Positions 23,327 through 40,950 of a DNA stretch of 64,000 nucleotides are shown one piece after another. The notes beneath the pieces are model-generated. The model saw nothing but the letters and a program-made list of their open reading frames with translations, was not told where the DNA came from and searched no databases. The translations under genes were made by a program, and so were the position numbers. Source of the stretch: Streptomyces sp. 846.5 (GTDB taxonomy: Bacteria > Actinomycetota > Actinomycetes > Streptomycetales > Streptomycetaceae); contig NZ_SOBN01000001.1 in the NCBI RefSeq assembly GCF_004365705.1, positions 2,000,555 to 2,064,554 of the forward strand. The letters are read 5' to 3'. The first letter of the stretch is position 1. Each line of letters opens with the position of its first letter.

Positions 23327-23368
23327 TCGGGACGACAGGATTTGAACCTGCGACCTCCTGACCCCCAG
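23327..23368 (-). repeat. Displaced 3' end of tRNA-Pro (left attachment-site copy)
   Basis: 42 bases identical, apart from one C/T change, to 40909-40950, in the same orientation. It covers the anticodon loop, variable loop, T arm and 3' acceptor strand of tRNA-Pro(GGG). This is the hallmark of an att site left by a tyrosine-integrase element that used the tRNA gene. Confidence 0.85.
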
Positions 23369-23565
23369 CAATGGCGACATGCCCCTCTTGCACCGTGCCA
23401 CTCGGCGCCCTCCGACGGCCACTTCCCCGGCGCCGTCCGCACGGACGGACGGACGGTCGCGGTCGACCGGCTCCCCGGCTGGCCGCAGGTGATCCGGATG
23501 CGCTGGTGAGAGCCCCGGGGGGACGGGTCGTTAGACCCGTCCCCCCAGGGTGTCGGACGCGGGCG

Positions 23566-26500
23566 TCAGCCGCCGATGCCGAGGGCGAAGACGTGCAGGG
23601 CGCTCTGGCCGCCCGCGGCGCCATTGCCGATGTCCGGGAGGGTCACCGAGGCGACCGTCTTGCCGGCCGCCAGTGCCACGGTCTGCTCGTAGACGTTGAC
23701 GGTGGTGTGGTCCTGGATGTTGCCGGGTCGGTTGCGGTAGGCGCAGACGATGACCGCGTGCGAGCCGGCGGGGGCGCTGCCGTACCAGTCGGGGACGGAG
23801 AGGGTGAAGTTCTGGGTGGTTCCGTCCGTGTAGGTGATGAGGCCGCCGCCGGACGCGGGGCCGTAGGTGGCGGTGTCCAGGAAGCCGAGTTCGGCTCCCG
23901 AACCGGTCAGGTCGACGGTCTGGCCGCCGGCGGTCGCGTTGTCCGGTTGACCGCTCGCGGCGGTCGGCCAGGTGAAGCCGATCCCGCCGTAGGTCAGGGC
24001 GGCCCCCGGGGCGACCCCGGCTGCGGCCAGGGCCTGGGCGGACAGGCTGGACTGGGAGCCGTCGATGTCGGCCGAGCCGGTGGCGGTGTCGTCGGAGACG
24101 CCGGTGTTGTCGTAGGCCGCCGCCAGCGAGGGATAGGGCTGCTGCACCTGGATGCCGGTGGTCAGCACCGTTCGGCCCGTGCCTCGCGCACCGCGGTAGG
24201 AGGCGGTGACGGTCAGTGCGATCGGCCCCGCGGGCTGCAGCCCGGCCGGCGCGGTGACCGAGAACGTCGCGGTCCCGCTGCCGTGCGGCGGGACCGCCGG
24301 CGGCTGCGCCCGGCGGCTCACGGTCCAGCCCTGCGGCACGGACATCCCCAGCCGGACGCCGGTCAGCGCGATCGGGCCGGGATCGGCGACGGTCGCGGTC
24401 ACCGTGAACGCGGTGCCGGGGTGGAACGTCGTCGGTGCGCCGCTCACCCTCAGCGAGGGCATGGCCGGCACCTGGAAGGAGTCGACCGTCAGCCGGCCGG
24501 ATCCGGTGGCCACGACCTGGATCGTGTGCGGGCCGGGGGAGAGTCGGGTGTCGGTGAACACCGTCTGCCCGGTCTCGGGCGAGGCGGAGTAGGTATCGAC
24601 GGCCCCCCGCGAGACGCCGTCGACCAGGACCCGGGCGCTGCCCTGGTTCGGTCCCTCGGCGGCGACCAGTGCGACGCTGGTCCCGGTGAAGGCGAGGGAG
24701 ACCGTGGCACCCTGGGCGCTGGTGCTGTGCTGGTCGTCACCGCCGGGGGCGCCGGCCGCGGACCAGGTCCCGGTGTAGCCGAGCAGCGGGCTGTCGTTGC
24801 CGACGGTCCCAGCCGCCGGCGTGGCGGGCATGGGCCCGGCGCTTCGCATGACCGCCAGTGCGGCGGCGGGCCAGGCGCCGGCGGCGACCAGAGTGGGCGC
24901 GGTGTAGGCGATATCGGTGCCGTTGTCGTTGGTGTTCGGGTTGTCGGTGTAGTTGGTCGGGCCGACGGTGATGTTGTTGATCGTCGGCGTCCACATGCCG
25001 ATCCAGTCGTTGCCGCCCAGGCTGGTGACGTTGCCGAACGTGTCCCAGTAGGAGCTGCCCTCGTCCTGGTAGAGCATGTTGTTGGTGTGGTTGCCGACGG
25101 TCACGTAGTTGCCGGAGAAGACCGAGTCGATCCCGGCGCCGTCCTCACCCTGGCCGCCGTTGGTGTAGATCGGGCCGCCGTCGTACAGGACGTTCATCAC
25201 GTCGTGGATGAAGTTGTCGGTGATCCGGTTGCCGCCCGCGTAGTTGCTGCCCCGGGCGCAGGAGGAGATGCCCTGGGCCGCCTGCATGGAGCACGGCGAC
25301 GCCCAGCCCCAGCCCCAGCCGAGGGACATTCCGGAGTACGAGGTGTGTCCGATGTCGTTGTGGTCGACCCTCAGGTCCCGGGTGTAGCCGGCCCAGACGC
25401 CGACGGCGTCGGTGTAGACCTGGCCGACATGGGAGATGGTGTTATCGGAGACGGTATTGCCGGAATCCATCAGCGCCGGGTCGCGCTGGAAGTAGTCGTC
25501 CACGTCGCCGACCGAGATTCCGCCCGCCGCCGTGTCGGTGACGGTGCTTCCGGTGACCGTGGAGTTCCGCGTCCCGTCCGCCAGGTCGACGCCGGTCGCG
25601 CCGAGGTGGTTGAACGAGTCGCCGCTGAAGGTGATGTCGTCGCCGCGCGAGACCGCGACCGCGCCGGGGGTGACCACCGGGGTGGTCGTGGGCCCCGAAG
25701 TGTCCCAGAGCACGGCGGCCTGGTTGTCGATGTAGCCGGTGGTGACCGGGAGGTTCCAGGTCGAGTAGGCGAAGCCGATGCCCTGGAAGGCGATGTCGTG
25801 GACTGGCGCGACCGCCTGCGGCGTGGTCTCGAAGGCGTCGACAACCAGGTAGGCGCCGCCGGCCTTGGTCAGCTTCACCGTGTGGGTGCCGGGGGCCAGG
25901 CCCTGGACCGAGTAGAGGACCTGCTGTGCCATCCGGGTGCTGCCGTAGCCCGTCCAGTTCTTCCGGGTGTCGGCCACCCCGTCGACGGAGGCGTTGAAGC
26001 TGCCCTCGTCCGAGTTGGTCTCGCCGAGGACCTCAAGACCGCTGCCGGTGAAGGTGTAGCTGACCGAGTCGCCGTCAGTGGTGGCGTAGGCGACGTCGTT
26101 GCCGAGGTCGCCGGAGCCGCGTGCGGCGGAGGTGCCCCAACTGCTGCCTGCATAGTTCACGCCGGGGGCGTCCTGGTTGACCGGCACCAGGTGGCCCGGG
26201 GTGCCGTTGAGCGACACCAGGGTCTGCAGGACCGGCAGTTCGACGTCGGCGGCGTGCATGTCCTGGCCCGGACGCGGCAGGTAGTAGAGCCGGTCAGCCA
26301 CCTTGTCCAGGTAGAACTGGCCTGCCTGACCGAGCAGTTGGTACGCGTTCTCGACGTAGGAGACGCCGTCCATGCCGGGCAGCCCGGCGCCGTTGAAGGG
26401 GAAGCCGAGGTTGGGCACGTTGACGTGGTTGGCGGCCCAGCAGCTCGGCAGGACGTTGATGTCGGAGCCACCGGCCGGGTCGGCGGTGATGCTCTGCACC

Positions 26501-27105
26501 GGACAGCTCATATGCTTCCAGTCGTTGTCCTGCACGACCTCGATCTGCGACTGCTGGGTGAACCCGGCGTAGGCGGCGTCGGAGGTCCGGAAGCCGGTGG
26601 CGGTCGTCTGCAGGCCGGGCGGGCTGCCGGCGGAGCGGGCCAGGGTGGCCCTGGTGCCGTCGACGAAGAGCTGCTGGCCGGCGGTGGCGGAGGCCGGGAC
26701 CGGCGCCGACCAGAGTTCGGACCCCGCCACCTCGGTGAATCCGCTGACCCGGACCGCGCCGTTCAGCACCGGCTGCTGGTCGCGGACGGGACGGTAGACC
26801 ACCTGGAACCCGTTGCTGCCGGAGTCCTGCGGCCCGAGCTGCAGCGGAGCGGTCAGCCGGTAGTCCCCGCCGTACAGGTCGACGTCGATGTCCGCGGTCA
26901 TGTTCCGGTCGAGGGCGCGGACCCTGGTCGCGGCGGAGCCCAGGCTGCAGGGCGCGGCGGCGGTACAGGCACTGCCGTGACCAGTGGGGGAGGCGTACAG
27001 AGAGGTGGGACGGGGCTGCGTCGCGGCTCCGGCCGGGGCGGCGGTGACCCCGCAGACCGCCAGTCCGAAGCTGATAAGTGCCGCTAGCCGTACAGCAGTT
27101 GGCAT
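23566..27105 (-). CDS. Secreted multidomain beta-helix glycoside hydrolase-like protein (GH141-like)
   Basis: 1179 aa from the ATG at 27105 (AAAGG upstream). A signal peptide ends at AGA-ATQ. Residues about 30-310 resemble the front of right-handed beta-helix enzymes of the GH141 type (YASPTGHGSACTAAAPCS, GPQDSGSNGFQVVYRP, QLFVDGTRATLARS). A CBM-like beta-sandwich (about 315-425) interrupts the helix, which resumes at about 425-770 with clear rungs (DDITFSGDSFNHLGATGVDL, DAVGVWAGYTRDLRVDHNDI). Then come a second CBM-like sandwich (about 775-880), a NEW3-type domain (about 885-985) and a C-terminal module (about 996-1179) shared with the neighbouring GH20 protein. It probably removes a sugar such as fucose or xylose from complex glycans outside the cell; the specificity is inference. 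No membrane or sorting anchor. Confidence 0.75.
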   Translation of the reverse strand: MPTAVRLAALISFGLAVCGVTAAPAGAATQPRPTSLYASPTGHGSACTAAAPCSLGSAATRVRALDRNMTADIDVDLYGGDYRLTAPLQLGPQDSGSNGFQVVYRPVRDQQPVLNGAVRVSGFTEVAGSELWSAPVPASATAGQQLFVDGTRATLARSAGSPPGLQTTATGFRTSDAAYAGFTQQSQIEVVQDNDWKHMSCPVQSITADPAGGSDINVLPSCWAANHVNVPNLGFPFNGAGLPGMDGVSYVENAYQLLGQAGQFYLDKVADRLYYLPRPGQDMHAADVELPVLQTLVSLNGTPGHLVPVNQDAPGVNYAGSSWGTSAARGSGDLGNDVAYATTDGDSVSYTFTGSGLEVLGETNSDEGSFNASVDGVADTRKNWTGYGSTRMAQQVLYSVQGLAPGTHTVKLTKAGGAYLVVDAFETTPQAVAPVHDIAFQGIGFAYSTWNLPVTTGYIDNQAAVLWDTSGPTTTPVVTPGAVAVSRGDDITFSGDSFNHLGATGVDLADGTRNSTVTGSTVTDTAAGGISVGDVDDYFQRDPALMDSGNTVSDNTISHVGQVYTDAVGVWAGYTRDLRVDHNDIGHTSYSGMSLGWGWGWASPCSMQAAQGISSCARGSNYAGGNRITDNFIHDVMNVLYDGGPIYTNGGQGEDGAGIDSVFSGNYVTVGNHTNNMLYQDEGSSYWDTFGNVTSLGGNDWIGMWTPTINNITVGPTNYTDNPNTNDNGTDIAYTAPTLVAAGAWPAAALAVMRSAGPMPATPAAGTVGNDSPLLGYTGTWSAAGAPGGDDQHSTSAQGATVSLAFTGTSVALVAAEGPNQGSARVLVDGVSRGAVDTYSASPETGQTVFTDTRLSPGPHTIQVVATGSGRLTVDSFQVPAMPSLRVSGAPTTFHPGTAFTVTATVADPGPIALTGVRLGMSVPQGWTVSRRAQPPAVPPHGSGTATFSVTAPAGLQPAGPIALTVTASYRGARGTGRTVLTTGIQVQQPYPSLAAAYDNTGVSDDTATGSADIDGSQSSLSAQALAAAGVAPGAALTYGGIGFTWPTAASGQPDNATAGGQTVDLTGSGAELGFLDTATYGPASGGGLITYTDGTTQNFTLSVPDWYGSAPAGSHAVIVCAYRNRPGNIQDHTTVNVYEQTVALAAGKTVASVTLPDIGNGAAGGQSALHVFALGIGG

Positions 27106-27123
27106 GAGGGAACCTTTCGGCAC

Positions 27124-27669: not shown

Positions 27670-30600
27670 TCATCCGATGCCCATCGCGAAGATGTGAAGC
27701 GCGGACTCGGCCGAACCACCGGTGGCCATCGGCAGGGTCACCCCGACGAGGGTCTTGGCCGGATCGATCTTGATGGTCGACAGGTAGATGCTGCGGCTGC
27801 GCTCCACCGGGCCGGCGTGCCCGGCGAGGTTGTAGTACGCGCTGCTGATCGCCTCGGTGCCGCCGGACGGTCCGGCGGTCCAGTCTGGTGCGCTCAGGTC
27901 GGCGGTCTGCACGCTTCCGTCCGCATAGCGCACAGTCGCTGTCCCGCCGGCCGGTCCGAATCCGGCCGTGGTGAGCAAGCCCAGGGTGCTCCCGGATCCG
28001 CTCAGGCTGATCGTCTGGCCCTTCGCGACGACATTGTCAGGCGTTCCGGCCGTGACCGACGGCCAGGTGAACGTGATCCCGCCCCGGGTCAGCGAGTCTC
28101 CGGACGTGACGCCCGCTGCCGCGAGGGCTTGGGTGGAGAACGTCCCCTGATAGTCGTCGATGCCCGCGCCGAGGCCGGCCGGATCGGTGTTCGTGTCATC
28201 GGTGATGCCGACGTTGTCGAACGCGGCGGCGAGTGTCGGATAGGGAGCAGACACGGAGAGCGTGACGCTGTCGGCATCGACGCGCCGGCTCCCGTCGACC
28301 GCTGCCAGCTTGATCGGAATCTCGGTCGTCCCGGGCTTGGTGGCCTGTACGGACACCAAGATCGACGCCGTGCCGCCCGCGGGTACGTCGAGGACCCCGT
28401 CGGCAGGCGTCACGGTGACACCGGACCCGTCGGGTGGGACCGCCTTCCACGCGAGGTGGACGACACCGGCGGCGCTGTTGGCCACGGCCAGCCCGGCGGT
28501 CGCCGATCCGCCGAGGCGGTCGAGGGCGACCGAGGCCGGTGTCGCGGTGATCAGCTGCGGCAGAGCAGCGCTTCGAGTATCGGTGGCGGTCTGTGTCCCG
28601 GCACTCGACCCCGGCACGTCATAGCTCGCCCGGGCCTGGAAGTAGTACGTCCCGGCCGTGGCCTCGGCAGGGACCTGGATCGGCCAGGTCAGAATGCGGG
28701 CCCGGTGAGGCAGGATCACGGGAATCGTGACGGGTGCCGGTGACGCGAGCGTCGAGGCGTCAGTTCCGGAGAACGCATCGAGGCTGACGACGACGTTACG
28801 CAGAGGCGTGTTCCCGGTGTTGGTGACCGTGCCCGTCACCATGCTGCTCTGGAGCGCGTGCAGCTTGTCAGGGAAGGTCAGTTGGACTTCGGCGTCGGTG
28901 GCCGGGGCGGTGTAGAACTGGATGTCGGAGACCATGACGGGCTTGCCCGCGGCCCCGACGAAACGCAGCCACCGGAACTTCTGCGGCACCGTGACGGCCA
29001 ACTGGTTCCAGTCGTACATGGGGTGCCATTGGACCGGGGCGAGGTCGACGCATCCCGAGTCCGGCCCGGTGCTGCAGCCTTGGAACGTCCCGCCGACCAT
29101 GTTCAGCGTGTTGTCCAGGGCTCCGGGCTGGTAGGAGTACGGCCAGTTGGGATTGGGGTCGGGGACAGGGACGAACCGGATCTTGGTCACCCGGGCGGCG
29201 TGGCCCGCTCCGAGATCGATCCCGATCTCAGCGCCCGTGGTGCTCGTGGAGGCGTAGTAGGTGTCCGCACTGCCGTCGAACGCCGCACCGACCGTGTGCC
29301 CGCTGGAACCGAGGCTGCCGTACGCAGTGCCAGTGACCAAGCGGGCTTGTGACGGCACGGCGTCGGGGATCCCGGGGGCGCCGCCGATCCGGTCGAGGAC
29401 GTCTTCGAAGGCGAAGACGTTCGCCAGGCGCTGACCGCCCCAGGTCCGGTCGGCGACGACCGCGAAGGGGTTCCGTGCGAACCACTGGATCCGGTCCAGG
29501 GGAGGCAGGGCCCATTCCGGGCTCTCATACCCGAGCACGTTCTGGTTGGCGGCGTCGACCCACCAGTCGGATCCGGAATAGAGCCGGGAGTCCAGGGGCA
29601 GGTCGGGGTTGTCCGCCGCGGTGTCGGGCGAGATGTAGAGCCGGTAGTCGGGCAGGTTCTCGTCGGGCGCCGAGACTACGTGGTAGCCGAGGCCGGTGTA
29701 GTACGAGGCCGGGTTAGCGGACCAGGGCTCGATGACGAACGACTTGTCCGGGGCGATCGTGGCCCCGCCCGCGTTGTCCCACCAGTTCCAGATCTCCGGC
29801 TGCCGTCCGAGCGACTGCACGTAGCGCCCGAGCGTGTTCTGCCAGGCCACGTAGACGTCCTCGGTGCTCGCGAAGCCGTGCTGCTTCGCGTAGTCGACCA
29901 GCGCCGGACACTTCTGCTGGTCGGCCAGGACCGGGTACTCGTCGCCGCCGAGGTGGATCACCGGCGAGTCCGGGAACATCGCCGCCGTCTCCTTGAGGAG
30001 GCTCTCGACGAACTCGGTGGTGTGTGGCTTGGTGATGTCCAGGCCGCCGCAGGATGTGCCGAGGGAGGGGTCGAACGCGGTCAGCTCCCCGGAGTGTCCC
30101 GGCACGTCGACCTCGGGCAGCAGCACCACGTGGTACTGCGCCGCGTACCGGACGAGCTCGGCGATGTCCGCCGGGCTGTAGGACTGCGGACCGCTCAGAC
30201 CTGGATGCGCCGCGCTGGGCAGCAGGTAACCCTGGCCGTCGGTGAGGTGCAGGTGGATCTCGCTCAACTTGAGCCATGCCGACTGCCGGATCTGCTGCTC
30301 CAGATAGGCAACGGATTCGAAGTGCGCGGGAAGGTCGATCATGGTGCCCCGGGTCTTGACCGTCGGCCAGTCCTCGGCGTGACCGCGCGGTATCGCGGTC
30401 ACGCTCTGCAGCAACTGCTCGATGCTCTGCTCGCCGTAGAAGGCTCCCGTCACATCATGTCCGGTGACGACGACGGTACCGCCGACGTCAAGGCTGTAGG
30501 CCTGGTCCCGGGACGGAGCCGACGCTCCCAGGGTGAGAAAGAAGTCGCCCGGCCGCGGCCGCGGGACAGTCACGACGGGGAGGCGTCTACCGGTGATGGT

Positions 30601-32748
30601 GGCCAGGTCACGGCTGAAGGTGTCGGCGTCCGCGGCAAGTTGCGGCGCGTGGGCTGAGTCGACGGCCACCCTGCTGTCGAGACCGAGGCGGAACACACCG
30701 TCCTTTCCGGACCACTTTTGCAAAGACGGTACTACTGGCGGGGTGGCCGCGGGAGCCTGCGCTGTCGGCCCGCCGAGAGTGAGTTCGTAGAGCGCGAGAT
30801 CACCCCACTCAAGATTCGCCTTGCGAACCACGAGGCGAACCTGCGAGGAGGTGACCATGTGCGGCAGACGAATCGTCCGGAACTCCACGAGCGAGCTGTT
30901 CGAATCCCACGTGACGGGCGCTGCCGGGACCTGGGTCGCCCAGGCGTGGCCGGTCCAGGTCTGGACGTCAGCGCTCGTGATGCCCTGACCCTGGCCGAAG
31001 GCTGTCGCCAGGGACACCGAGTCGAAGGTCTGCGCGGTCCCGTAGTCGACGGTGACGGTGCCGGGGAAGGCGGTCCCGGTGGCGGCACTCGCCCACCCGG
31101 TCGAAGGCCGCTGATCAGCGATCGCGGCCGGCGAGGTGCCCTGCCCGCTCCGGTAGGAGGTGGTGACCGTCGTCTTCGCCGCGTCGGTCTGCAGTGCGCC
31201 GAGGTCGGGCGCCGTCGCCGGCAGCGGGGTGCCGACGAAGTCGCGGCCCCCGTCGCCGCTGCGCGTACCGGCGCCGATGGCCGGTGAGCCGGGCTTCAGA
31301 CGATAGCCGGTGAGATCGTCGATCGATGTCGCGGTGCCGGACGAGGCGAGGCGCGGATCGCCGGTGATCGCGGAGGAATCGGTCGGCGTCGGGCCGCCGA
31401 AGTAGAGGTTGTGCTGATAGGTGATGTTGCTCGTCGCGTCGTACGGGACCCCCAGCGGGTTCACGAACACGTTGTCGCGGAAGCCGATCTGGGTGTTGTT
31501 CGTCTCTCGGTAGACCATGGAGTAGAGCGGAACGTCGGCCGTGGACTTGGCCGCGTAGACGGTGTTGTTGTAGATGTCGACGTTCTTGGCGTTGTAGCAG
31601 GACAGGTAGAAGACGTTCCCGCCGTCGTTCTGGCTGACGTTGTAGCGGACGGTCGCCTCGGCCGGACCGGAGTCGGCGGAACAGGTCTCGAAGAACCCGC
31701 CGCCGTTGTCGTGGCTGAAGTTGTACTGCACGAGACTGCGGTAGGTGGACTCGTCAGAGTCAAAAGCGGTGTCGTCCAGTCCCCTGCCGTTGTTGTGCGT
31801 CGCGGAGACGTCGTTGTACTGCACGGTGGTGTCGTCCGCACCGGACCACCAGATCGCCGCGTTACCGTGGGCCTGCGCGGTCCGGGCGACCGTGTTGTGC
31901 TCGATCAGGGTCCCGACGACCTGGTTGGGGTTGATTCCGCCGTTGCCGATGTCGTGGACGTCGTTCCCACGGATGACGAGGCCGGTGCTCGGGGTGAACG
32001 CGCCGTACGCGGTGGCCGGCAGTCCCAGTTCGCCCCACAAGGCCTTCCAGCCGTCGCGCTGCATCCAGGTCGACCAGGTGACGATGCCGTACGCTCGCAC
32101 GTCGGCGACCTGGTTGTCCTGGATCACCATGCCCGTGTAATAGGTGGGCGTGGTATTGCCGTTGACGTGGACCAGGATGCCGCCGTGTCCGATGTTGACG
32201 ACGTACCCGGAGGGGCCGTCTATGTGATGGACGTAAAGGTTCTCCAGGGTGATGCCGGGCAACGCGCCGTCGTCCTGCGCGGCGACCTCGACCCCGTTCC
32301 GCCAGGACCCGTCGCCGCTGCTGTTGGTGACTTCGAGCCCGTCGACGGTGATGTCGTGCTCATTGGAAAGCAGGACGGCCGACACAGCGGTGCCGTTCCC
32401 TGCGATCACCGGCTTCGCGCCGGTTCCGTAGGTCGCCACCGTGATCGGTGCGCCGGCGCGTCCGGAGCCGTGCAGCGCCAGTTGCCCGGTCCAGGTGCCG
32501 CCGTCCTTGAACAGGACCCGGTCCCCGGGCCTGAAGGTCTGGGCGTTGACTTTCGCCAGACTCTGCCACGGAGTCGCAGGCGAGATACCGTTGGTGGTGT
32601 CGCTTCCGGCCGGGTCGACGTAGTACGTCGTCGCCTGCACGGCATGCGCGATCGCAGGAGGAACGGACAGTCCTGCCGCGGAAAGCAGGACCGCGATGGC
32701 CGCGACGGACAACCGGCGGGCGAATCGGGTTGTGCGATGGCGTTTCAT
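27670..32748 (-). CDS. Giant secreted beta-helix + GH20 beta-N-acetylhexosaminidase protein
   Basis: 1692 aa; ATG with GAAGGGA upstream; signal peptide ending at about residue 33 (AHA). Order: right-handed beta-helix (about 36-500; TYYVDPAGSDTTNGISPATP, FRPGDRVLFKDGG, many GNDVHDIGNGG-type rungs); F5/8 discoidin-like domain (about 535-665); GH20b-type domain (about 685-795); GH20 catalytic barrel (about 800-1130) with RGTMIDLPAHF, LTDGQGY and the catalytic Asp-Glu in HLGGDE (about 932-937); a second F5/8-like domain (about 1140-1280); a NEW3-type domain (about 1290-1370) and another sandwich; and a C-terminal module (about 1510-1692) homologous to that of the 1179-aa neighbour. GH20 enzymes use substrate-assisted catalysis to release GlcNAc, GalNAc or lacto-N-biose. 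Last gene of the transporter operon. The beta-helix-GH20 fusion is unusual. Confidence 0.85.
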   Translation of the reverse strand: MKRHRTTRFARRLSVAAIAVLLSAAGLSVPPAIAHAVQATTYYVDPAGSDTTNGISPATPWQSLAKVNAQTFRPGDRVLFKDGGTWTGQLALHGSGRAGAPITVATYGTGAKPVIAGNGTAVSAVLLSNEHDITVDGLEVTNSSGDGSWRNGVEVAAQDDGALPGITLENLYVHHIDGPSGYVVNIGHGGILVHVNGNTTPTYYTGMVIQDNQVADVRAYGIVTWSTWMQRDGWKALWGELGLPATAYGAFTPSTGLVIRGNDVHDIGNGGINPNQVVGTLIEHNTVARTAQAHGNAAIWWSGADDTTVQYNDVSATHNNGRGLDDTAFDSDESTYRSLVQYNFSHDNGGGFFETCSADSGPAEATVRYNVSQNDGGNVFYLSCYNAKNVDIYNNTVYAAKSTADVPLYSMVYRETNNTQIGFRDNVFVNPLGVPYDATSNITYQHNLYFGGPTPTDSSAITGDPRLASSGTATSIDDLTGYRLKPGSPAIGAGTRSGDGGRDFVGTPLPATAPDLGALQTDAAKTTVTTSYRSGQGTSPAAIADQRPSTGWASAATGTAFPGTVTVDYGTAQTFDSVSLATAFGQGQGITSADVQTWTGHAWATQVPAAPVTWDSNSSLVEFRTIRLPHMVTSSQVRLVVRKANLEWGDLALYELTLGGPTAQAPAATPPVVPSLQKWSGKDGVFRLGLDSRVAVDSAHAPQLAADADTFSRDLATITGRRLPVVTVPRPRPGDFFLTLGASAPSRDQAYSLDVGGTVVVTGHDVTGAFYGEQSIEQLLQSVTAIPRGHAEDWPTVKTRGTMIDLPAHFESVAYLEQQIRQSAWLKLSEIHLHLTDGQGYLLPSAAHPGLSGPQSYSPADIAELVRYAAQYHVVLLPEVDVPGHSGELTAFDPSLGTSCGGLDITKPHTTEFVESLLKETAAMFPDSPVIHLGGDEYPVLADQQKCPALVDYAKQHGFASTEDVYVAWQNTLGRYVQSLGRQPEIWNWWDNAGGATIAPDKSFVIEPWSANPASYYTGLGYHVVSAPDENLPDYRLYISPDTAADNPDLPLDSRLYSGSDWWVDAANQNVLGYESPEWALPPLDRIQWFARNPFAVVADRTWGGQRLANVFAFEDVLDRIGGAPGIPDAVPSQARLVTGTAYGSLGSSGHTVGAAFDGSADTYYASTSTTGAEIGIDLGAGHAARVTKIRFVPVPDPNPNWPYSYQPGALDNTLNMVGGTFQGCSTGPDSGCVDLAPVQWHPMYDWNQLAVTVPQKFRWLRFVGAAGKPVMVSDIQFYTAPATDAEVQLTFPDKLHALQSSMVTGTVTNTGNTPLRNVVVSLDAFSGTDASTLASPAPVTIPVILPHRARILTWPIQVPAEATAGTYYFQARASYDVPGSSAGTQTATDTRSAALPQLITATPASVALDRLGGSATAGLAVANSAAGVVHLAWKAVPPDGSGVTVTPADGVLDVPAGGTASILVSVQATKPGTTEIPIKLAAVDGSRRVDADSVTLSVSAPYPTLAAAFDNVGITDDTNTDPAGLGAGIDDYQGTFSTQALAAAGVTSGDSLTRGGITFTWPSVTAGTPDNVVAKGQTISLSGSGSTLGLLTTAGFGPAGGTATVRYADGSVQTADLSAPDWTAGPSGGTEAISSAYYNLAGHAGPVERSRSIYLSTIKIDPAKTLVGVTLPMATGGSAESALHIFAMGIG

Positions 32749-32832
32749 GGGCTTCCCTTCGCAAGGACGTGCGGGCTCACATGGACCAAGGCAGGCGGAG
32801 CGGGCCGGACTTCTCGATGGACGGGCGAACGG

Positions 32833-33705
32833 CTACCTGGTGACGCCGAGCGTCATCCCGTCCATGATCTTGCGGCCGAACCAGAAGAAGAGGACGACCA
32901 TCGGGGCGACCAGGATCGTCACTCCGGCGAACAGGCCGCCCCAATCGGAGGAGTACTGCATCGTCGAGTTCAGCTGGTTGAGCGCGGCCGGCAGGGTGAA
33001 CTTCGTCGGATCGCGCAGGATGACCGAGGCCAGCAGGAACTCGTTCCACAGCCCGATCGCGTTGAGGACGACGACTGTGCTGAGTCCGGGCCGCGCGACC
33101 GGCACCATGACCTTCCAGAAGGCGCGCGCAGGTCCGGCGCCGTCCAGGGCGGCCGCCTCCTCCAGCTCCGACGGCAGCGAGCGGAAGTACCCGGTCAGGA
33201 CGAAGACCGTGAACGGCATCGACACCGCGACGTTGCAGATCACCAGCGAGATGCGGTCGTCCCACCAGCCGGTGACCCAGTCGTTCATGAACTGGCTCAA
33301 CCCCTGGGCCAGGGTCTGGTACGGAATCAGCACCGCCTGCACCGGCAGCGCCAGCCCGGCCGCGAAGTAGGTGACCAGCGGCGCCGCCGACCTCCTTGTC
33401 GATCGCGCCAGCACGTAGGACGCCGGGGTCGCCAGGGCCATGAGGACGACGATCGAGGCCGAGGTGACCAGCAGGGTACTGATGAACGCCCCGGCGAAAT
33501 CGGCGGCGTGCCAGGCCCGCGCGTAACCGCCGAGGTTCAAGCCGTCCGCGCCCAGTGGATCGGACCACAGCGCCCGGGACGAGCGGAAGGAGCTGAGCAG
33601 CGTCCAGGCGAGCAGTGCCAGGTTGACGCCGGCTACCAGCCACAGCAGGACTTTGATGCCGCGCGGGACCGCGCGGTCGCCGAGGTACCGACCGATGGCG
33701 TTCAC
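32833..33705 (-). CDS. Carbohydrate ABC transporter permease (MalG type)
   Basis: 290 aa from the GTG at 33705, which overlaps the stop of the upstream permease as GTGA and has GGAG just before it; the longer frame to 33846 lies within the other gene. Six predicted helices and the EAA loop SLPSELEEAAALDGAGPARAF. C-terminal MDGMTLGVTR is typical of CUT1 MalG-type permeases. Pairs with the MalF-type gene upstream. Imports an oligosaccharide or sugar released by the two secreted hydrolases. Confidence 0.9.
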   Translation of the reverse strand: MNAIGRYLGDRAVPRGIKVLLWLVAGVNLALLAWTLLSSFRSSRALWSDPLGADGLNLGGYARAWHAADFAGAFISTLLVTSASIVVLMALATPASYVLARSTRRSAAPLVTYFAAGLALPVQAVLIPYQTLAQGLSQFMNDWVTGWWDDRISLVICNVAVSMPFTVFVLTGYFRSLPSELEEAAALDGAGPARAFWKVMVPVARPGLSTVVVLNAIGLWNEFLLASVILRDPTKFTLPAALNQLNSTMQYSSDWGGLFAGVTILVAPMVVLFFWFGRKIMDGMTLGVTR

Positions 33706-34694
33706 GAGATCTCCAGACGGTCGCCGCGCCCGAGCCGGCGCACCAGGACCACGAGCACGATGGTCAGCAAGGTGAGCAAGGTGGCCATGGCCGAGCCGTA
33801 GCCGAGTTCCGGGATCCCGCCGGTCCCGTTCCCGGCGCTGATCCACTGTTGGACCGCGTAGGTACGGGACTGCAGCGGCGGGGTTCCGGCCGAGCCGACG
33901 AAGCCGATGACGATGTCGAAGGTGCGCAGGCTGTTGGAGGTCCAGAGCACCGCCGCGATCGCGATCATGTCCCGGGACAGCGGGAAGGTGATGTACCGGA
34001 ACTGCTGCAGCCGCGTCAGCCCGGCCAGCTGGGCTTCCTCATACAGGTGCTTGGGGATCGCGTCGACCGCGGTCATCAGCAGCACGATGTAGAACCCCGA
34101 GGTCATCCACACGACGCCGACCAGGATGCACGCGAAGATGTGGTCCGGGTCCAGCCACGGCTGCTGGAGGGCGTGCAGCCCCAGGACCCTGAGCAGCTTG
34201 TTGACCACGCCGTCCGGGTTCAGCAGGAAACCGATCGAGGTGCCGACCGCGATCATCGAGATGATCGACGGCAGGTACAGCGCGGCCCGGACGAACGCCC
34301 GGCCGCGCATGTCGCGCAGCACGGCCATCGCCAGGAACGCCAGGCCGAACACACCCGCGCCGCCGACGAGCACGATCAGCAGCGTGTTGATGAAGGCCTG
34401 CCGGACCGCGTCGTCGTGGAGGATCCGGACGTAGTTGTGGAAGCCGATCCACGAACGGTCCGAGCCGGGTCCGGCCCACTTGCTGAACGAGATCACCACG
34501 CCGTAGACCGACGGGGCGAGGAACCCGAACGTGTAGACGAGGATGGCCGGCGTGGAGAACGCCCGGTAGATCCGGTCCCGGGGCGCGCGCTTCGCCCCGG
34601 CCCTCACCGGGTGGGCGGGACCGTCCCCGTGCGGGCCAGGGGCCGCTGCCCCCGGCCGGCTGGACGCCACGGCCTCAGCTGTTGGCGAGGACAT
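33702..34694 (-). CDS. Carbohydrate ABC transporter permease (MalF/UgpA type)
   Basis: 330 aa with an Arg/Ala-rich cytoplasmic N-terminus and six helices; the EAA-like loop is IPKHLYEEAQLAGLTRLQQF. The start overlaps the binding-protein gene by 20 bases and the stop overlaps the next permease, so the three are tightly coupled. CUT1-family sugar uptake. No ATPase gene is present in the locus; such systems in Streptomyces often share the multiplexing ATPase MsiK, encoded elsewhere. Confidence 0.9.
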   Translation of the reverse strand: MSSPTAEAVASSRPGAAAPGPHGDGPAHPVRAGAKRAPRDRIYRAFSTPAILVYTFGFLAPSVYGVVISFSKWAGPGSDRSWIGFHNYVRILHDDAVRQAFINTLLIVLVGGAGVFGLAFLAMAVLRDMRGRAFVRAALYLPSIISMIAVGTSIGFLLNPDGVVNKLLRVLGLHALQQPWLDPDHIFACILVGVVWMTSGFYIVLLMTAVDAIPKHLYEEAQLAGLTRLQQFRYITFPLSRDMIAIAAVLWTSNSLRTFDIVIGFVGSAGTPPLQSRTYAVQQWISAGNGTGGIPELGYGSAMATLLTLLTIVLVVLVRRLGRGDRLEIS

Positions 34695-36024
34695 CCGCGG
34701 TCTTCCTCCGCCCCTGCGTCACGAACTGCTCCGGGCTGATCTTCCCGCCGAGCAGCTGGTCGTCCAGCGGCAGGAAGACGTCGTTCCACCACTTGTTGTC
34801 CGCCGTCGCGCCGTCGTACGTCAGGTTCGTCTCGCTGGCGCCGGTGATCGCGTCCTGGGCCGCCTTCAGCGCCGGCGGGGCCGGGTCGTCGGAGCGCGCC
34901 GGGATGTTCAGCGCCTCGGTGCCGATCTTCGCGAGGTTCGCCTTGGTGACCATGTAGGTCAGGAACAGCTCGGCGGCCTCGACGTGCTTGGCCTTGGAGC
35001 TCACCGCCCAGCCGAGCGAGCCGACCTCGACGGAGTCGTGGCCGCCGTCGACGGACGGGAAGGGGAAACTGCTCGGCGCCGCGTCCGCCGGGGCCTGTGG
35101 GTGTGTCTCGGCCGGCAGCCAGGTGCCGTTGATGTTCAATGCCTCCTTGCCCTGGGCCCAGTCGTTCTGCGCCGCGGGGTACTTGGTCCCCATGTAGCCG
35201 TCCTGGAAGTACGGGATCAGCTGGGCCACGGCCTTGGCCGCCCTGAGGACGGCCGGGGCGTCCCAGTTCCTGGCGTCGGTGCTCAGGCCCGCGAGGCTGC
35301 CGGGGCCGCCGTAGCGCATCATCAGCTCGTAGAACCAGTAGGCGTTGTAGTAGTCGACCAGTCCGTCCTGGGCGATCGGGGTCTTGCCCGCCGCCTTCTC
35401 CCGGGCCAGCAGGGCGATGAAGTCCGTCCAGGTCTTCGGCGGGTTCGCGGCGATATCCGGGAAACGGGCCGCGTCGTACCAGATCGCGGTGGAGATGAGG
35501 GTGTTCGGGACGAAGTCGAGATGGCCGGAGGAGTCGGTGGCCGACTTCACGACATTGGGCGAGAGCACGTCGGCGACGGTCTTGCCGGCCTCGCCGGGGA
35601 CCGGCATCTTCAGGACTCCGTCCAGCGGTCGGGTCATCTTTTGTGCTTCGAACTCCGCGATGTGGTCGGTGGAGGTGTTGAACACGTCCGGCCCGTCGGC
35701 ACCGGCCACGTCCTGGGGCAGGCTCTTCTCGCCGTCCCGGCCGATGTACTTGATGTCGACCTTGATGCCGGTCCGGGCGGTGAAGTCGTCCGCGGCGGCC
35801 TTGAAGATCTTTGCCTGGGGCTCGGTCTGGGCCCACGTCGACCAGTACTCGACCGAACCTTCGGCCTTGGCCGCGGCCACGATGTCAGTGCCGTCTGTGG
35901 ACGAGGACGACGCGTCGTCCTTCTTGCCGACCTTGTTGCCGCACGCCGAGATGAGCATCAGCGCGACCAGAGACGCCGCGAGGCCGGCCTTCGTGGATAT
36001 GCGGACCTTGTTTCTTCGGTTCAT
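34675..36024 (-). CDS. Extracellular sugar-binding lipoprotein of ABC transporter
   Basis: 449 aa from the ATG at 36024 (AAGGAG ten bases upstream); the longer frame is rejected because it would bury the signal peptide. Lipobox ISAC (Cys at about 28). A CUT1 solute-binding fold follows: AEGSVEYWSTWAQTEPQAKI, GIKVDIKYIGRDGEKSLPQD, AKALNINGTWLPAE-type segment and AVSSKAKHVEAAELFLTYM. It binds the sugar or oligosaccharide outside the membrane and feeds the two permeases. Second gene of the operon. Confidence 0.9.
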   Translation of the reverse strand: MNRRNKVRISTKAGLAASLVALMLISACGNKVGKKDDASSSSTDGTDIVAAAKAEGSVEYWSTWAQTEPQAKIFKAAADDFTARTGIKVDIKYIGRDGEKSLPQDVAGADGPDVFNTSTDHIAEFEAQKMTRPLDGVLKMPVPGEAGKTVADVLSPNVVKSATDSSGHLDFVPNTLISTAIWYDAARFPDIAANPPKTWTDFIALLAREKAAGKTPIAQDGLVDYYNAYWFYELMMRYGGPGSLAGLSTDARNWDAPAVLRAAKAVAQLIPYFQDGYMGTKYPAAQNDWAQGKEALNINGTWLPAETHPQAPADAAPSSFPFPSVDGGHDSVEVGSLGWAVSSKAKHVEAAELFLTYMVTKANLAKIGTEALNIPARSDDPAPPALKAAQDAITGASETNLTYDGATADNKWWNDVFLPLDDQLLGGKISPEQFVTQGRRKTADVLANS

Positions 36025-36119
36025 GGGGAACGGGCTCCTTGACGAGGGGGTGAAAGCCGGGGTCCTCGTTCGGTGTCGAGGTGGTGTGTGCGGTGCCGCA
36101 GAGGCGTGTTCTGAGACCG

Positions 36120-37424
36120 TCATGCGAGGGCCAGGGTGACGACGGTGCCGGTGTTCCGGGCGCGTTCGGCGGCCCAGACGACCTTGTGGGACGCGAGCGA
36201 GCCGCGCGCGTCGGTGAGGACGAAGGACGGGTCACAGGTTGCGACCGCTGCGATGAAGGAGTCGACGAGCGCGTAGTCCCCCCCGCCGTGGCCATCGGCC
36301 GCCGACGCCCCCTCGTCGGCGCCGGTGTCGATGACGTCGGCGGTGTCGGTGAGGAAGTCGTGGACGTGCAGCCGGACGCCGTCGCCCTCGACGATGCCCT
36401 TGGTGCCGAAGATCCGGGTCTTCCGATGCTCCAGCTTGGTGAAGGCGACCATGGTGAAGGAGGCGGTGGCCCCGCCCTCGAACTCCATCGAGACCACCTG
36501 GTGGTCCACGACGTCGTTGCCGCCGTTGTAGACGCAGACCCCGTAGTCGCTGGTCTTCAGTGCCTCGCGGACGGACGCCTCGTCGAAATGGGTGGTCACC
36601 AGCGAAAGCGGCCACCACTGGCCAGCCGGATCGCCGAGGAACCGTGAGTAGATACGCGTCGCCGCGTAGGCGCACGTCGGCTCGACAGCGCAGTCGGTGC
36701 ACCGGCCGGCTGCGCCCTCGGGCTTGTTCTCCGGCCGGAAGTGCATCAGCGAGCCGAAGGACGAGACGCGTTCGGGGACGCGTCCCATGATGTGGATGAG
36801 CCAGTCGATGTCGTGGCTCGATTTGGCCAGGAGCATGGGCGAGGACTCGTGCTCGCTGCGCCAGTTCCCCCGGACGAAGGAGTGCGCCTGGTGCCACCAG
36901 CCGACCGGCTCCAGGTGCTCGATACTCGCGATCTCGCCGACCCGGCCGGAGTCGAGCAGGGCCTTGAGGGTCTTGGTGTAGCGGGTGTAGCGCATGACGT
37001 GACAGACGGCCAGGATGATGCCGGCCTTGTCGGCGGCGTCGGCGATGCGCTCGCTGTCGGCCTCGGTCGGCGCCATCGGCTTCTCCAGCAGGATGTGGTA
37101 GCCGAGTTCGGCGAAGCGGACGGCCGGATCGGCGTGCATCGAGTCCTGGGTCGCGATGACCACCGCGTCGGCCACCCGCTCGGCTTCGGCCAGCGAATGC
37201 CAGTCTTCGAAGACACCCTCGGGTGGCACGCCGAACTCCGCCGCCGCCGCCGCCCGAGCCTCGGGGCGGGGCTCGGCGATCGCGGCGATCCGGGCGTGGC
37301 CGCCTTGGACCGCCCGCCGCGCGTAGCCCAGACCGCGCATACCGGTTCCGACTATCGCCAGGGTCACCGGCACTCCACTGCCGGCCGCTGTTCTCACCTC
37401 CTTTACATCTACGTATGTGGTCAT
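36120..37424 (-). CDS. Gfo/Idh/MocA family oxidoreductase
   Basis: 434 aa from the ATG at 37424, preceded by GGAGATGAGG. The N-terminal Rossmann fold has VTLAIVGTGMRGLGYARRAV, and EKPMAPTEADSERI carries the conserved Lys-Pro of the family. The middle has a Cys cluster (CTDCAVEPTC at about 246-255), which I recall in a subset of this family and which may bind metal. It is an NAD(P)-dependent dehydrogenase for a sugar or derivative, cytosolic. First gene of the operon, suggesting it acts on the imported sugar; its substrate is unknown. Confidence 0.85.
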   Translation of the reverse strand: MTTYVDVKEVRTAAGSGVPVTLAIVGTGMRGLGYARRAVQGGHARIAAIAEPRPEARAAAAAEFGVPPEGVFEDWHSLAEAERVADAVVIATQDSMHADPAVRFAELGYHILLEKPMAPTEADSERIADAADKAGIILAVCHVMRYTRYTKTLKALLDSGRVGEIASIEHLEPVGWWHQAHSFVRGNWRSEHESSPMLLAKSSHDIDWLIHIMGRVPERVSSFGSLMHFRPENKPEGAAGRCTDCAVEPTCAYAATRIYSRFLGDPAGQWWPLSLVTTHFDEASVREALKTSDYGVCVYNGGNDVVDHQVVSMEFEGGATASFTMVAFTKLEHRKTRIFGTKGIVEGDGVRLHVHDFLTDTADVIDTGADEGASAADGHGGGDYALVDSFIAAVATCDPSFVLTDARGSLASHKVVWAAERARNTGTVVTLALA

Positions 37425-37757
37425 GACCTCATCTCCGTCAGCAGCCAGGGCATACGGGCTCACCTCGCGGCCTCCGCAAACATCCAGTCCATCCCGATAT
37501 GTGCTCATTCATCGGCTCCTGTTCGCGTCGGCCTGGCGGGCGCCACGATCGACGGCGGGGTCGGCGCGGCGTGTGTCCGCAGTGCGCCGGCGGTCCTGCT
37601 GCCCGTCGGGCAGATGGTGGTGCCACGGCGCCGAAGGGTGGTGGAATCGGGCCGGCGAGCCGTCCTGGTGGGGGTCGACGTGGCCCTCACCGATACGGAG
37701 GGAGGAGGTATGCCCGACATGGTCGCTCATCCGTTCGCCGGGGCGAGATTGCCTCAC
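37425..37757. other. Divergent intergenic region of the glycan locus
   Basis: About 330 bases between the oxidoreductase and ROK genes. It must hold the operon promoter; no convincing consensus promoter was picked out on the minus strand. Overlapping GC-rich frames here look like chance. Confidence 0.5.
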
Positions 37758-37784: not shown

Positions 37785-37816
37785 TAGAACGGTCCTGTGT
37801 CAAGAGGGGGAACATC

Positions 37817-39001
37817 ATGCGACAGACCAGTGGCGGCGACTCCACCGCGCTGCGCCGCATCAACACGGTGACGACGCTGCGGACGCTGCGGGTAGGGGAT
37901 CCCCCGACGCTGACCGAGCTCGCGAAGAGATCAGGGCTGTCCCGCCCGGCCGTGGAGTCGGCCATCGACGACCTGACGGAGGCCGGATGGGTCGCCGAAG
38001 TGGCGCCGCCCGCGGGCGAGCGCCCGGTCGGCCGCCCGGCCCGGCGGTTCCGGTTCCGCGGCGAGTCAGGCTACGTACTCGGCATCGACATCGGCGCCTA
38101 CAAGGTCCTGACCTGCCTGACGGACCTGGACGGCCGCCAAGTGGCCACCTACCGCGCCGATGCCGGCCCCGACGACGACCGCCAGACACGCCTGGCCGCC
38201 GTCCGCCACGCCGCGCGCCGCTGCCTGGCCGAGGCCGGAGTCTCCGACCAGCGGCTCTGGGCGGTCGGCGTGGCCTCACCGGGTGTCGTCGGCCGCGACG
38301 GCTCAGTCCTGTTCAGCTCCCTGACCGACTGGGCCGGCCAGAACCTGGCCGCCGAACTCGCCGCCGACTTCCCCTGCCCGGTCCTGGCCGAGAACGACTG
38401 CAACCTGGCGGCCTTGGCCGAACGCTGGCGAGGCGCAGTCCAAGGCTCCGACGACGTGGTCTACGTCCTGTCCGGCCTGCGAACCGGCGCAGGCCTGGTC
38501 CTCGGCGGCCGCCTGCACCGCGGCCACATCGGCGCGTCCGGCGAAACCGGCGCACTCCCCCACCTCGGCTGGGCGCGCACCCAGGACCATCTGCAGAAGT
38601 TCCCGGGACTCGCCGACGATGTGCCGGAGCAGCGCCGCGCCGAGCAAGTGTTCTCGCTGGCCCGGTCCGGAGACCACGCCGCGCTGGAAGCGGTCGACGC
38701 GTACGCGTCGGATCTCGCCATGGGCGTCGCCGCGATCGTCCTCACCGTCGATCCCGAGGTCGTCGTCCTGGGCGGCGGCCTGTGGCGAGCCTCTGACCTG
38801 CTACTGGAGCCGCTGCGACGACACCTCGAACCGCTGTGCCTGATCATGCCGCGGCTGGAGGTGTCGGTGCTGGGCGACGAGTCCGTCGCCCTCGGAGCCG
38901 TGCGGGTGGCGCTGACGCACTTGGAGGAACGGCTCTACGATCCCGACACCGCGGCGGTCCAGCCGCCTGGATTTATTAAGTCAGACTTGATTAATAGCTA
39001 A
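37817..39001 (+). CDS. ROK family transcriptional regulator
   Basis: 394 aa; GAGGGGG lies eight bases before the ATG. N-terminal winged helix (about residues 15-80; TLTELAKRSGLSRPAVESAI) joined to a ROK sugar-kinase-like domain (about 85-385) with YVLGIDIGAYKVLTCL, GVASPGVVGRDGS, AENDCNLAALAE and HRGHIGASGETGALPHLGW. The zinc-binding CXCGXXGC motif of ROK kinases and many ROK repressors is missing. Divergent to the sugar operon and very likely its repressor, responding to an imported sugar. The last codons overlap a second copy of its presumed operator. Confidence 0.9.
   Translation: MRQTSGGDSTALRRINTVTTLRTLRVGDPPTLTELAKRSGLSRPAVESAIDDLTEAGWVAEVAPPAGERPVGRPARRFRFRGESGYVLGIDIGAYKVLTCLTDLDGRQVATYRADAGPDDDRQTRLAAVRHAARRCLAEAGVSDQRLWAVGVASPGVVGRDGSVLFSSLTDWAGQNLAAELAADFPCPVLAENDCNLAALAERWRGAVQGSDDVVYVLSGLRTGAGLVLGGRLHRGHIGASGETGALPHLGWARTQDHLQKFPGLADDVPEQRRAEQVFSLARSGDHAALEAVDAYASDLAMGVAAIVLTVDPEVVVLGGGLWRASDLLLEPLRRHLEPLCLIMPRLEVSVLGDESVALGAVRVALTHLEERLYDPDTAAVQPPGFIKSDLINS
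38972..38996. promoter_or_regulatory. Second AT-rich candidate ROK operator at the rok 3' end
   Basis: TTTATTAAGTCAGACTTGAT then TAATA, inside the final codons of the ROK gene. The core AAGTC-A-GACTT is palindromic, with outer TATTAA/TTAATA. About 16 of 24 positions match the site before the gene on the other strand. Confidence 0.4.
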
Positions 39002-39146
39002 GACTGCGTCGCCCATGCCAGGGGCTCTGCCGGTGACCAACGTAAGCATGAGTGTCGTAGTTGCCGATGATGGTGGCTGCGACGGGGTCACCTTCAGTTC
39101 CTCGCATCTCACGTCCCTTCAGTTGCAGTTCGGTACCCGGTGCTCC

Positions 39147-40357
39147 CTGTTGGGTTCCAATACTGCCAAGAGGTGCTGAACTGCAGTTACATCGGCTGCT
39201 TCAACTGCGGCATGATCGAGTCTCATGGCGCTGCGACTGCTTTACCTGGTCTTCGTCCGGCTACTCGGCGGTCTGCTCCTGCTGGGCCGCTCCAGTCGGG
39301 CGAAAGACATCGAGATACTCATCCTGCGCCACGAGGTCGCCATCCTGCGTCGCCACTTCCCCAAAACCCACCTTTCCTGGGCCGACCGCGCCCTGCTCTC
39401 CGCGCTGACCCGCCGGCTGCCCCGAACCCTGCGCCGCCACCGACTGGTCACCCCCGCAACGCTGATGGACTGGCACCGCCGCCTCGTCCAGCGAAAATGG
39501 CGACAGCCAGCGGCAAAGCCGGGCCGACCACCGATCCCCGAAGAACTGCGGACGCTGATCCTGCGCCTCGCCGGCGACAACCCGAGCTGGGGATACACCC
39601 GCATCCAGGGCGAACTCCGCCGCCTCGGGCACCGCGTCGGCGCCTCCACCATCCGCCGCCTCCTGCGCAGCACCGGCCTGCCGCCCGCACCCCGCCGCGC
39701 CATCGAGCAGAGCTGGACCCAGTTCCTGCACACTCAAGCCGAAGGGCTGCTGTCCTGCGACTTCTTCCATGTGGACACCGTCACGCTCAAGCGCCTCTAC
39801 GTGCTCTTCGTGATGGAGGTCCGTACGCGCACCGTTCACGTGCTCGGCGTCACCGCCAATCCCACCGGCGACTGGGTCACTCAGCAGGCGAGGAACCTCC
39901 TGCTCCAGGTCGGCGAACGAGCACTGCAGTTCAAGTACTTGATTCGGGACCGGGACGCCAAGTTCACCCAGCCCTTCGACGCGGTGTTCACCGCCAACGA
40001 CACCCAGGTCCTCAAGACCGCCCCGCAAGCGCCCAGGATGAACGCCTACGCGGAGCGCTGGGTACGCACAGCAAGATCAGAGTGCACCGACCGCATGCTC
40101 ATCTACGACGAGCACCACCTGCGTCGCATCCTCGACCTGTACGCCGAGCACTACAACACCGGACGCGCCCACCGAGCCCTGGACCTCCGCGCCCCCGCCG
40201 ACGACCCGAAAGTCATCCCCTTCCCCGCACAGCGCATCCGACGTCAAAAAATCCTCGGCGGACTCCTCAGCGAATACCACCCAGCCGCCTGAGGCTCCAT
40301 CGGACCTTCGGGCAAATCAGCAGCTCAGACCATGCACGAGGGTTTTGGAACCCTACA
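39147..40357 (+). mobile_element. Complete insertion sequence with rve-type transposase
   Basis: Left end TGTTGGGTTCCAATAC and right end (reverse complement) TGTAGGGTTCCAAAAC form imperfect terminal inverted repeats (14 of 16), giving an element of about 1.2 kb around one transposase gene. No flanking target duplication was recognised. Fragments of the same transposase family occur at 10663 and 13242. Confidence 0.7.
39225..40292 (+). CDS. Transposase with integrase core (rve) domain
   Basis: 355 aa, intact. N-terminal hydrophobic start (MALRLLYLVFVRLLGGLLLL), helix-turn-helix region (EILILRHEVAILRRHF, GRPPIPEELRTLILRLAGDN, SWGYTRIQGELRRLGH), then the DDE retroviral-integrase fold: first Asp in CDFFHVDTV, second in IRDRDAKF, Glu in NAYAERWVRTARSE. 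It cuts and joins the IS ends. All catalytic residues are present, so the element may be active. Confidence 0.9.
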   Translation: MALRLLYLVFVRLLGGLLLLGRSSRAKDIEILILRHEVAILRRHFPKTHLSWADRALLSALTRRLPRTLRRHRLVTPATLMDWHRRLVQRKWRQPAAKPGRPPIPEELRTLILRLAGDNPSWGYTRIQGELRRLGHRVGASTIRRLLRSTGLPPAPRRAIEQSWTQFLHTQAEGLLSCDFFHVDTVTLKRLYVLFVMEVRTRTVHVLGVTANPTGDWVTQQARNLLLQVGERALQFKYLIRDRDAKFTQPFDAVFTANDTQVLKTAPQAPRMNAYAERWVRTARSECTDRMLIYDEHHLRRILDLYAEHYNTGRAHRALDLRAPADDPKVIPFPAQRIRRQKILGGLLSEYHPAA

Positions 40358-40852
40358 GGCAGATTACTGAGCACTACCGGGCCACGGACCTTCTGCAGCA
40401 AGGCATCACGCATCCGTGTGCTTTATCCAAGCCCGCCCCCGCCGCAGGTCGAACGTCAACACAGTACGAGAAGTCAGCCGAAGGAGTGAGACGGCACCTT
40501 GAGCACCCTTAAGGGGTCGGCCCAGCTCAACGCCCCGACGCCGACTGAGGTGGTCGCTGGGTGGTCGCTGGGTGGTCGCAACAAAGTGATCACCGCTCGG
40601 GCCCGACAACTGCGATTCCGGACAAAAAATCCGGACAAAGACCCGTCAAAGCCGCACTGCGTCCGAGAGCGTGGTCAACCGGCCATTCCAAGGGGTCACT
40701 CGATCGTGAAGGACGCCAGCACCGCGCCTACGGATCATTGGCAGCGGAGTGCGTCAACTGCCCAGCATTCCCAAGGGATTTACCCCACCGGGCCCCTCGG
40801 TCCCATCTGCGGGGATGCGACCATCCTGCGACCACCAGCCCGCGACACGCCG
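40358..40852. other. Gene-free right end of the island with a short tandem repeat
   Basis: About 500 bases with no credible gene. TGGTCGCTGGG is repeated at 40551-40561 and 40562-40572, with a partial third copy to 40579. Such repeats next to an attachment site could bind a recombinase or excisionase, but nothing shows this. Confidence 0.4.
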
Positions 40853-40888
40853 AAAAAGGCCGTCCCCGCCTTCCGGCGGAAACGGCCT
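40853..40888 (-). terminator. Rho-independent terminator of tRNA-Pro
   Basis: On the minus strand a two-part stem (AGGCCGT/ACGGCCT outside, CCGCC/GGCGG inside) is followed by TTTTT. It lies 20 bases after the tRNA 3' end and would have been brought in with the island. Confidence 0.75.
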
Positions 40889-40908
40889 ACGACCTGCACG
40901 AATGCTGG

Positions 40909-40950
40909 TCGGGACGACAGGATTTGAACCTGCGACCCCCTGACCCCCAG
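40909..40950 (-). repeat. Right attachment-site copy, within tRNA-Pro
   Basis: The 42-bp partner of 23327-23368 (one mismatch), spanning the anticodon loop to the discriminator base of the intact tRNA-Pro gene. Confidence 0.85.

Follow-up and report, generated by a model that had tools for sequence, protein, structure and literature searches.

Gene content and ends of the island

The window analyzed here is a 64,000-nucleotide stretch of the genome of Streptomyces sp. 846.5, and our subject is a 17.6-kb island within it that lies between an intact tRNA-Pro(GGG) gene and a copy of the 3' end of that gene (Table 1). The island was originally predicted to hold a ROK regulator, an oxidoreductase, a sugar ABC transporter and two giant hydrolases, and all of these were confirmed as parts of a coherent operon. 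The solute-binding protein (SBP) of the transporter is similar to NgcE, with a score below the model cut-off, and to chitin-oligosaccharide binders.

The ends of the island are marked by a direct repeat of 43 bp, of which 42 are identical. The 29-bp core of this repeat had no match in any of 100 shuffles, and the claim of a repeated tRNA-Pro 3' end in the same orientation proved correct, as did the claim of a hairpin beyond each tRNA 3' end. The folded stretch of the left hairpin has an energy of -44.6 kcal/mol (z -8.7) with none of 200 shuffles equally stable, and that of the right hairpin -36.7 kcal/mol (z -4.6) with 1 of 200 equally stable. We refer to the sequences beyond the cores that carry these hairpins as type A (left) and type B (right) arms.

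Table 1. Features of the 17.6-kb island and its ends, with positions in the window.
Feature	Position	Strand	Remarks
tRNA-Pro(GGG), intact	40906-40982	-	target gene; ARAGORN
Right core	40908-40950		3' end of tRNA-Pro(GGG)
Type B arm	40695-40907		hairpin 40857-40888
IS481/IS3-like transposase (rve)	39225-40292	+	integrase position; Pfam rve_3; NCBIfam IS481 and IS3 models below curated cut-offs
ROK family regulator	37817-39001	+	
Gfo/Idh/MocA oxidoreductase	36120-37508	-	alternative start 37373
Sugar SBP, NgcE/NagB-like	34675-36123	-	alternative start 36024
ABC permease 1	33702-34694	-	alternative start 34607
ABC permease 2	32833-33846	-	alternative start 33705
1692-aa secreted hydrolase	27670-32748	-	GH136-type domain ~31177-32649; GH20 domain ~29326-30768
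1185-aa GH141-like beta-helix hydrolase	23566-27123	-	with CE2_N and NEW3; alternative start 26901
Left core	23326-23368		copy of tRNA-Pro(GGG) 3' end, one mismatch
Type A arm	23183-23325		GGGAGC/GCTCCC repeats; hairpin 23262-23301

Tandem cores, arms and the integrase position

Identical copies of the 29-bp core occur at three places in the genome, all in one orientation (C1:1956545, 2023881 and 2041463; G, C and L numbers are our handles for genomes, contigs and loci). From end to end they span 84.9 kb, and they delimit two segments of 67.3 kb and 17.6 kb, the island being the right-hand one; the core at C1:1956545 is beyond the window, at a distance of 67.3 kb on the left. What had been described as a lone insertion belongs to a tandem of two or more segments. 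The island is supported in outline, but as one layer of a larger stack of decayed elements. Two further tRNA genes, tRNA-Lys(CTT) and tRNA-Pro(CGG), are found at 22732-22899, just left of the left core; their model scores are below those of most tRNAs of the genome. They belong to the 67.3-kb segment, adjoining the core on its right, and are perhaps element-borne.

At least two copies of a 31-bp core (up to two mismatches, anywhere in the genome) are present in 13 of 14 genus genomes, this one included. Downstream of the tRNA, arrays of three cores in G001, two each in G007 and G013, two in G005 (one with four mismatches) and four within 101 kb in G012 (one with a mismatch) could be identified. 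The other genus relatives have a single core in stretches of 19-20 kb, and G010 has a single core in 120 kb; no core was found in G003, where the stretch ended at the tRNA. Comparison of 120 kb each of G010, G012 and G013 with the 200 kb left of our tRNA did not locate the outer left boundary of the array, as it gave scattered matches only (transposase copies, type A arms and few others) and nothing collinear.

The type A arm flanks the left core of the window on its left side and occurs again beside the core at C1:1956545 and at one internal core of G001. It is also found directly beyond the intact tRNA-Pro in five genus relatives (G002, G006, G007, G008 and G012), which represent the empty state with respect to the 17.6-kb segment. 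This is the arrangement foreseen in the original prediction, in which an empty site should show an intact tRNA-Pro followed by the left-type hairpin. Over the last 100 bp the type A arms agree at 75-83 of 104-106 aligned positions, and three arms that belong to other types agree at 59-62 of 111-122. The left hairpin was present before the 17.6-kb segment came. It had been seen as the displaced original terminator of the tRNA gene, an idea that was dropped once the second copy of the type A arm was found at C1:1956545; because of that copy it is probably not the original terminator.

The type B arm is 96% identical to an internal core region of G001 over 258 bp, core included. It is also similar to the arms that adjoin intact tyrosine integrases in G038 (79 of 104 positions) and G050 (72 of 103), with 57-63 of 111-125 for unrelated arms; the G050 integrase is supported by Pfam as well. 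The strata in G001 are, in order, the tRNA, a 15-kb integrase segment, a core, a type B arm with 1.2 kb, a core and a type A arm, and type A is therefore probably older than type B. The integrase of the 15-kb segment was confirmed by Pfam, while its other genes are by inspection like those of actinomycete integrative and conjugative elements (AICEs). The contents of the type B layer differ between G001 and the present genome. In G001, the 1.2-kb segment with the island's right arm contains a small gene pair (L038:2803-3509) that by inspection resembles an XRE-type antitoxin and a RelE-like toxin.

Using a hidden Markov model (HMM) of seven intact integrases from relatives in six frames, we found no tyrosine integrase inside the 17.6 kb. 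The only match of this HMM in a 224-kb regional composite was a fragment (model positions 41-144) at window positions 5019-5570. A genome-wide Pfam search for integrases placed none in the array among the best 10 of 12 matches of this genome, and there was no transfer protein among the Pfam matches of the island's eight called genes. The segment has thus, by the HMM and these Pfam matches, lost integration and transfer genes and retained attachment sites (attL and attR) as its two cores, two of the features by which a cis-mobilizable element (CIME) is recognized. The claim that no integrase lies inside holds as far as it goes, but the integrase position is occupied by the IS481-like transposase.

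In a survey of 23 tRNA-Pro loci, taken from this genome, from G001-G013 and from nine genomes of the family whose flanks matched well (in G038 and G050 the stretch's end was used in place of the core), seven loci had a full-length tyrosine integrase frame ending within 1 kb of the core and pointing at it. A full-length transposase of the window's type was found in the same position and direction at seven loci, this genome included; as the transposase model was built from six of the surveyed copies, the counts are descriptive. Of the remaining slots, that of G007 holds transposase fragments, that of G026 a split integrase, and seven hold neither. After the transposase in G009 and G023 comes the C-terminal part of a gene for a tyrosine integrase. 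A 43-bp repeat of a tRNA end is typical of tyrosine recombinases. Because of this repeat length and the integrase remnants in G009 and G023, the DDE gene was itself set aside as a candidate for the integrase.

This genome has three further transposase copies, of which two are partial, that adjoin a tRNA-Lys(CTT) gene at its 3' end (C1:5441102) and point at the tRNA; another on C2 is nearly full-length, and the 4 kb examined there contain no tRNA. IS481-like genes beside tRNA 3' ends, in one orientation and in the place of an integrase, are seen in the window, at G000:C1:5441371-5443823 and at L096, L048, L049, L089 and L091; they may perhaps represent a transposon family with a preference for att regions or integrase genes. 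Window positions 10660-14110 hold broken copies from this family, whose pieces are spaced by about 2.2 kb.

The island has a G+C content of 68.5%, compared with 72.6% for the right flank and 68.7% for the part of the window to the left of the island, which also has the 2-kb bin with the lowest G+C of the whole window (8000-10000, 59.7%). A frame of 475 or 433 aa at 21271-22698 has a coding signal and no Pfam or NCBIfam match.

The secreted hydrolases and the operon in other genomes

The lacto-N-biosidase LnbX belongs to GH136. A profile of the beta-helix of the 1692-aa protein, built from four sequences, matched the PDB entries 7v6m, 5gqc, 24mr, 7v6i and 6kqs with E-values of 1e-41 to 4e-59, compared with 1e-4 for one alginate lyase. 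Four of the five entries carry the name lacto-N-biosidase, and we take 7v6m and the others to be GH136. The similarity extends over the catalytic beta-helix, as expected of a GH136 member. In the text seen of PMC7335108, the acid/base and the nucleophile of ErLnb136 are given as D568 and D575. With an inferred 2-residue offset between chain and paper numbering, D325 and D332 of the 1692-aa protein align with these and are conserved in four of four sequences. The same source describes GH136 enzymes that require a GH136I/LnbY-type partner; none was recognised here, and no search aimed at such a partner was made.

A GH20 domain with the D-E pair is present in the second half of the protein, according to Pfam and the alignment to 8hvb and 4h04. 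Its best PDB matches are these two lacto-N-biosidases (107.9 and 88.2 bits, respectively), and the hexosaminidase 3rcn scores 84.5 bits. Judged by sequence similarity, the GH136-type and GH20 domains are thus both nearest to lacto-N-biosidases. Separate genes in one neighbourhood encode the beta-helix protein and a GH20 in G119 and G295, and in G161 a GH20 domain close to that of the window (E 6e-67) is in another frame, adjoining a GH136-type gene. This makes the 1692-aa protein look like a fusion. GH136-type proteins are in themselves not rare, as 102 of 394 family genomes (this one included) have matches at E ≤1e-20, many of them partial. GH136-type genes also lie between tRNA-Pro cores elsewhere (G013:C1:5734691-5736403 and G038:C2:1885952-1887898).

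The 1185-aa protein is similar over its beta-helix part to the GH141 enzyme BT_1002 (PDB 5mqp, E 6e-38), which has fucosidase activity. A search for GH112 (PF09508) gave no match in six genomes, nor in any of 14 control genomes, and is uninformative.

Counting this genome, 13 of 297 family genomes contain a match to the SBP at E ≤1e-60. In the ~4-kb stretches around these matches, the Gfo/Idh gene was found only in G119 and G295 besides this genome. Of the 13 other genus genomes, 12 gave no SBP match at E 1e-60, and the match in G005 is 37% identical and on another contig. A locus search with the 1692-aa protein gave one locus, in Catenulispora, with records near the window possibly left out. 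The Catenulispora operon has the same gene order, with an extra 654-aa gene of no known family between the ROK and Gfo/Idh genes. Within 60, 20 and 16 kb examined in G119, G295 and Catenulispora, respectively, no tRNA was found near the operon. The operon is therefore not dependent on tRNA elements, to which it had been tied.

The identities to Catenulispora are 75% for ROK, 66% for Gfo/Idh, 66.5% for SBP, 84 and 82% for the permeases and 48% for the beta-helix protein. Those to G119, which is of the same family as our strain, are 49, 63 and 68% for ROK, Gfo/Idh and SBP, 80 and 75% for the permeases and 53% for the beta-helix protein. The regulator, permeases and oxidoreductase are hence closer to Catenulispora than to G119, whereas a chromosomal control (one protein) is 55% identical in Catenulispora vs 82% in G119. 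The recurrence of the operon in two family genomes and in Catenulispora suggests horizontal transfer, and the pattern of identities favours such a transfer without proving it.

Origin of the segment and comparison with known systems

Our reading, to which we assign a probability of about 0.7, is that the 17.6 kb are a decayed, att-flanked and integrase-less CIME-like layer of a tandem accretion, carrying a glycan operon that was probably acquired horizontally. An element would have entered the 3' end of tRNA-Pro(GGG) site-specifically, and the enzyme would probably have been a tyrosine integrase like those that G038 and G050 retain intact. The element would then have lost its integrase and retained the att cores on both sides, and would now stand as a CIME-like layer in tandem with the 67.3-kb segment. 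Another element using the same core could in principle excise this layer or carry it along. As to a possible descent from an integrative and conjugative element (ICE) or an integrative and mobilizable element (IME), a type B-like arm lies beside the G038 and G050 integrases, and no remnant genes were found inside. The operon would probably scavenge glycans that contain N-acetylhexosamine and are perhaps fucosylated. Outside the cell the glycans might be trimmed and disaccharides released for uptake by the ABC transporter, and inside the cell the Gfo/Idh enzyme may oxidize the sugars under control of the ROK regulator.

Several observations weigh against parts of this reading. No integrase or integrase remnant was found in the 17.6 kb, so that the arm alone speaks for a former integrase. 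G001 shares only ~258 bp of the right end, and the operon may therefore have entered an already decayed segment. As to transfer, the SBP (68 vs 66.5%) and the beta-helix protein (53 vs 48%) are slightly closer to G119 than to Catenulispora, and there is only one chromosomal control, whose 55% match is possibly paralogous, as the second copies present in G119 and G295 reach 51 and 59%. As to substrate, the margin of the GH20 half over the hexosaminidase is small (88.2 vs 84.5 bits), and the GH20 encoded next to the operon in G295 resembles hexosaminidases; this points to an N-acetylhexosamine substrate, though not to lacto-N-biose in particular. An AlphaFold model of residues 1-650, made with one homologue, had a mean predicted local distance difference test score (pLDDT) of 46.

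The most serious of the other explanations is that an old decayed element lay between the cores and that the operon entered later by transposition or recombination, never having been cargo of a tRNA element. The tRNA-free locations of the operon in G119, G295 and Catenulispora would fit this, as would the transposase inside the island and the G001 segment that has the same arm without such an operon. However, no insertion boundary was found between operon and cores, and a repeat scan (minimum length 30) found no inside-out repeat around the operon; we consider such a later entry possible but rather doubtful. That all 84.9 kb arrived as one composite, with the middle core as the trace of an earlier fusion, seems unlikely to us. 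The three cores do share one orientation, and composite excision of tandem elements is reported in the text seen of PMC3218068, but the two internal cores have type A arms where the tRNA has type B, and the type B layer of G001 holds other contents. The absence of an integrase inside might finally be taken to mean that no element is involved, the operon being resident and the left repeat copying the tRNA end by chance or through conversion. We regard this as highly improbable in view of the shuffled controls and the three cores in the genome, the arrays and empty sites in relatives, and an SBP that is so seldom found in the genus.

The reading as an att-flanked layer with a horizontally acquired operon could be extended into a bolder proposal, that of a complete and transferable system with which soil actinomycetes would use lacto-N-biose-type or related fucosylated glycans. 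Such a cassette would comprise a fucosidase-like enzyme, two unrelated lacto-N-biosidase folds in one polypeptide, uptake and a Gfo/Idh route replacing the usual GH112 phosphorylase, and would still be movable by integrases acting on the tRNA cores. We think it improbable that all of this applies.

The site used by pSAM2 is also a tRNA-Pro. Like pSAM2-type AICEs, G001 has at this core an integrase, a small xis-like gene and, by inspection, traB- and prim-pol-like genes, but none of these is present in the 17.6 kb. Metabolic islands of this type, carried by tRNA-targeted elements, had been called rarely described for complex-glycan degradation in streptomycetes; accretion at a tRNA site, including remnants between repeats, is already described in Streptomyces in the parts of PMC9513070 available to us. 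As in the CIMEs and the ICE/AICE accretions treated there and in the portion seen of PMC5704250, integrase-less att-flanked segments are stacked in one tRNA gene, and relatives have an integrase-bearing element in front. The present case differs from these in its site, tRNA-Pro(GGG), in the carbohydrate operon and in the transposase in the integrase position.

The stacking is thus a known process; the cargo is unusual, with two unrelated sugar-cutting domains in one protein. The 1692-aa protein shares beta-helix similarity and, by alignment, the catalytic Asp pair with GH136 lacto-N-biosidases such as ErLnb136, but has its GH136-type domain fused to GH20. Its second half likewise seems related to GH20 lacto-N-biosidases (8hvb, 4h04), though by a small margin over hexosaminidases. 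The 1185-aa protein, although apparently akin to BT_1002 in its beta-helix, has the additional CE2_N and NEW3 domains. Published accretion cases, as far as covered by the text seen of PMC9513070, PMC5704250 and PMC3218068, concern conjugative elements and the cargo they carry in general; the layer described here is att-flanked and contains a carbohydrate operon, and relatives show the site before and after such a layer. The GH136-type and GH20 domains in a single chain provide a concrete protein open to assay. If the suggested substrate is correct, foraging of the lacto-N-biose type would extend from gut bacteria to soil-type actinomycetes, and another breakdown route would be suggested.

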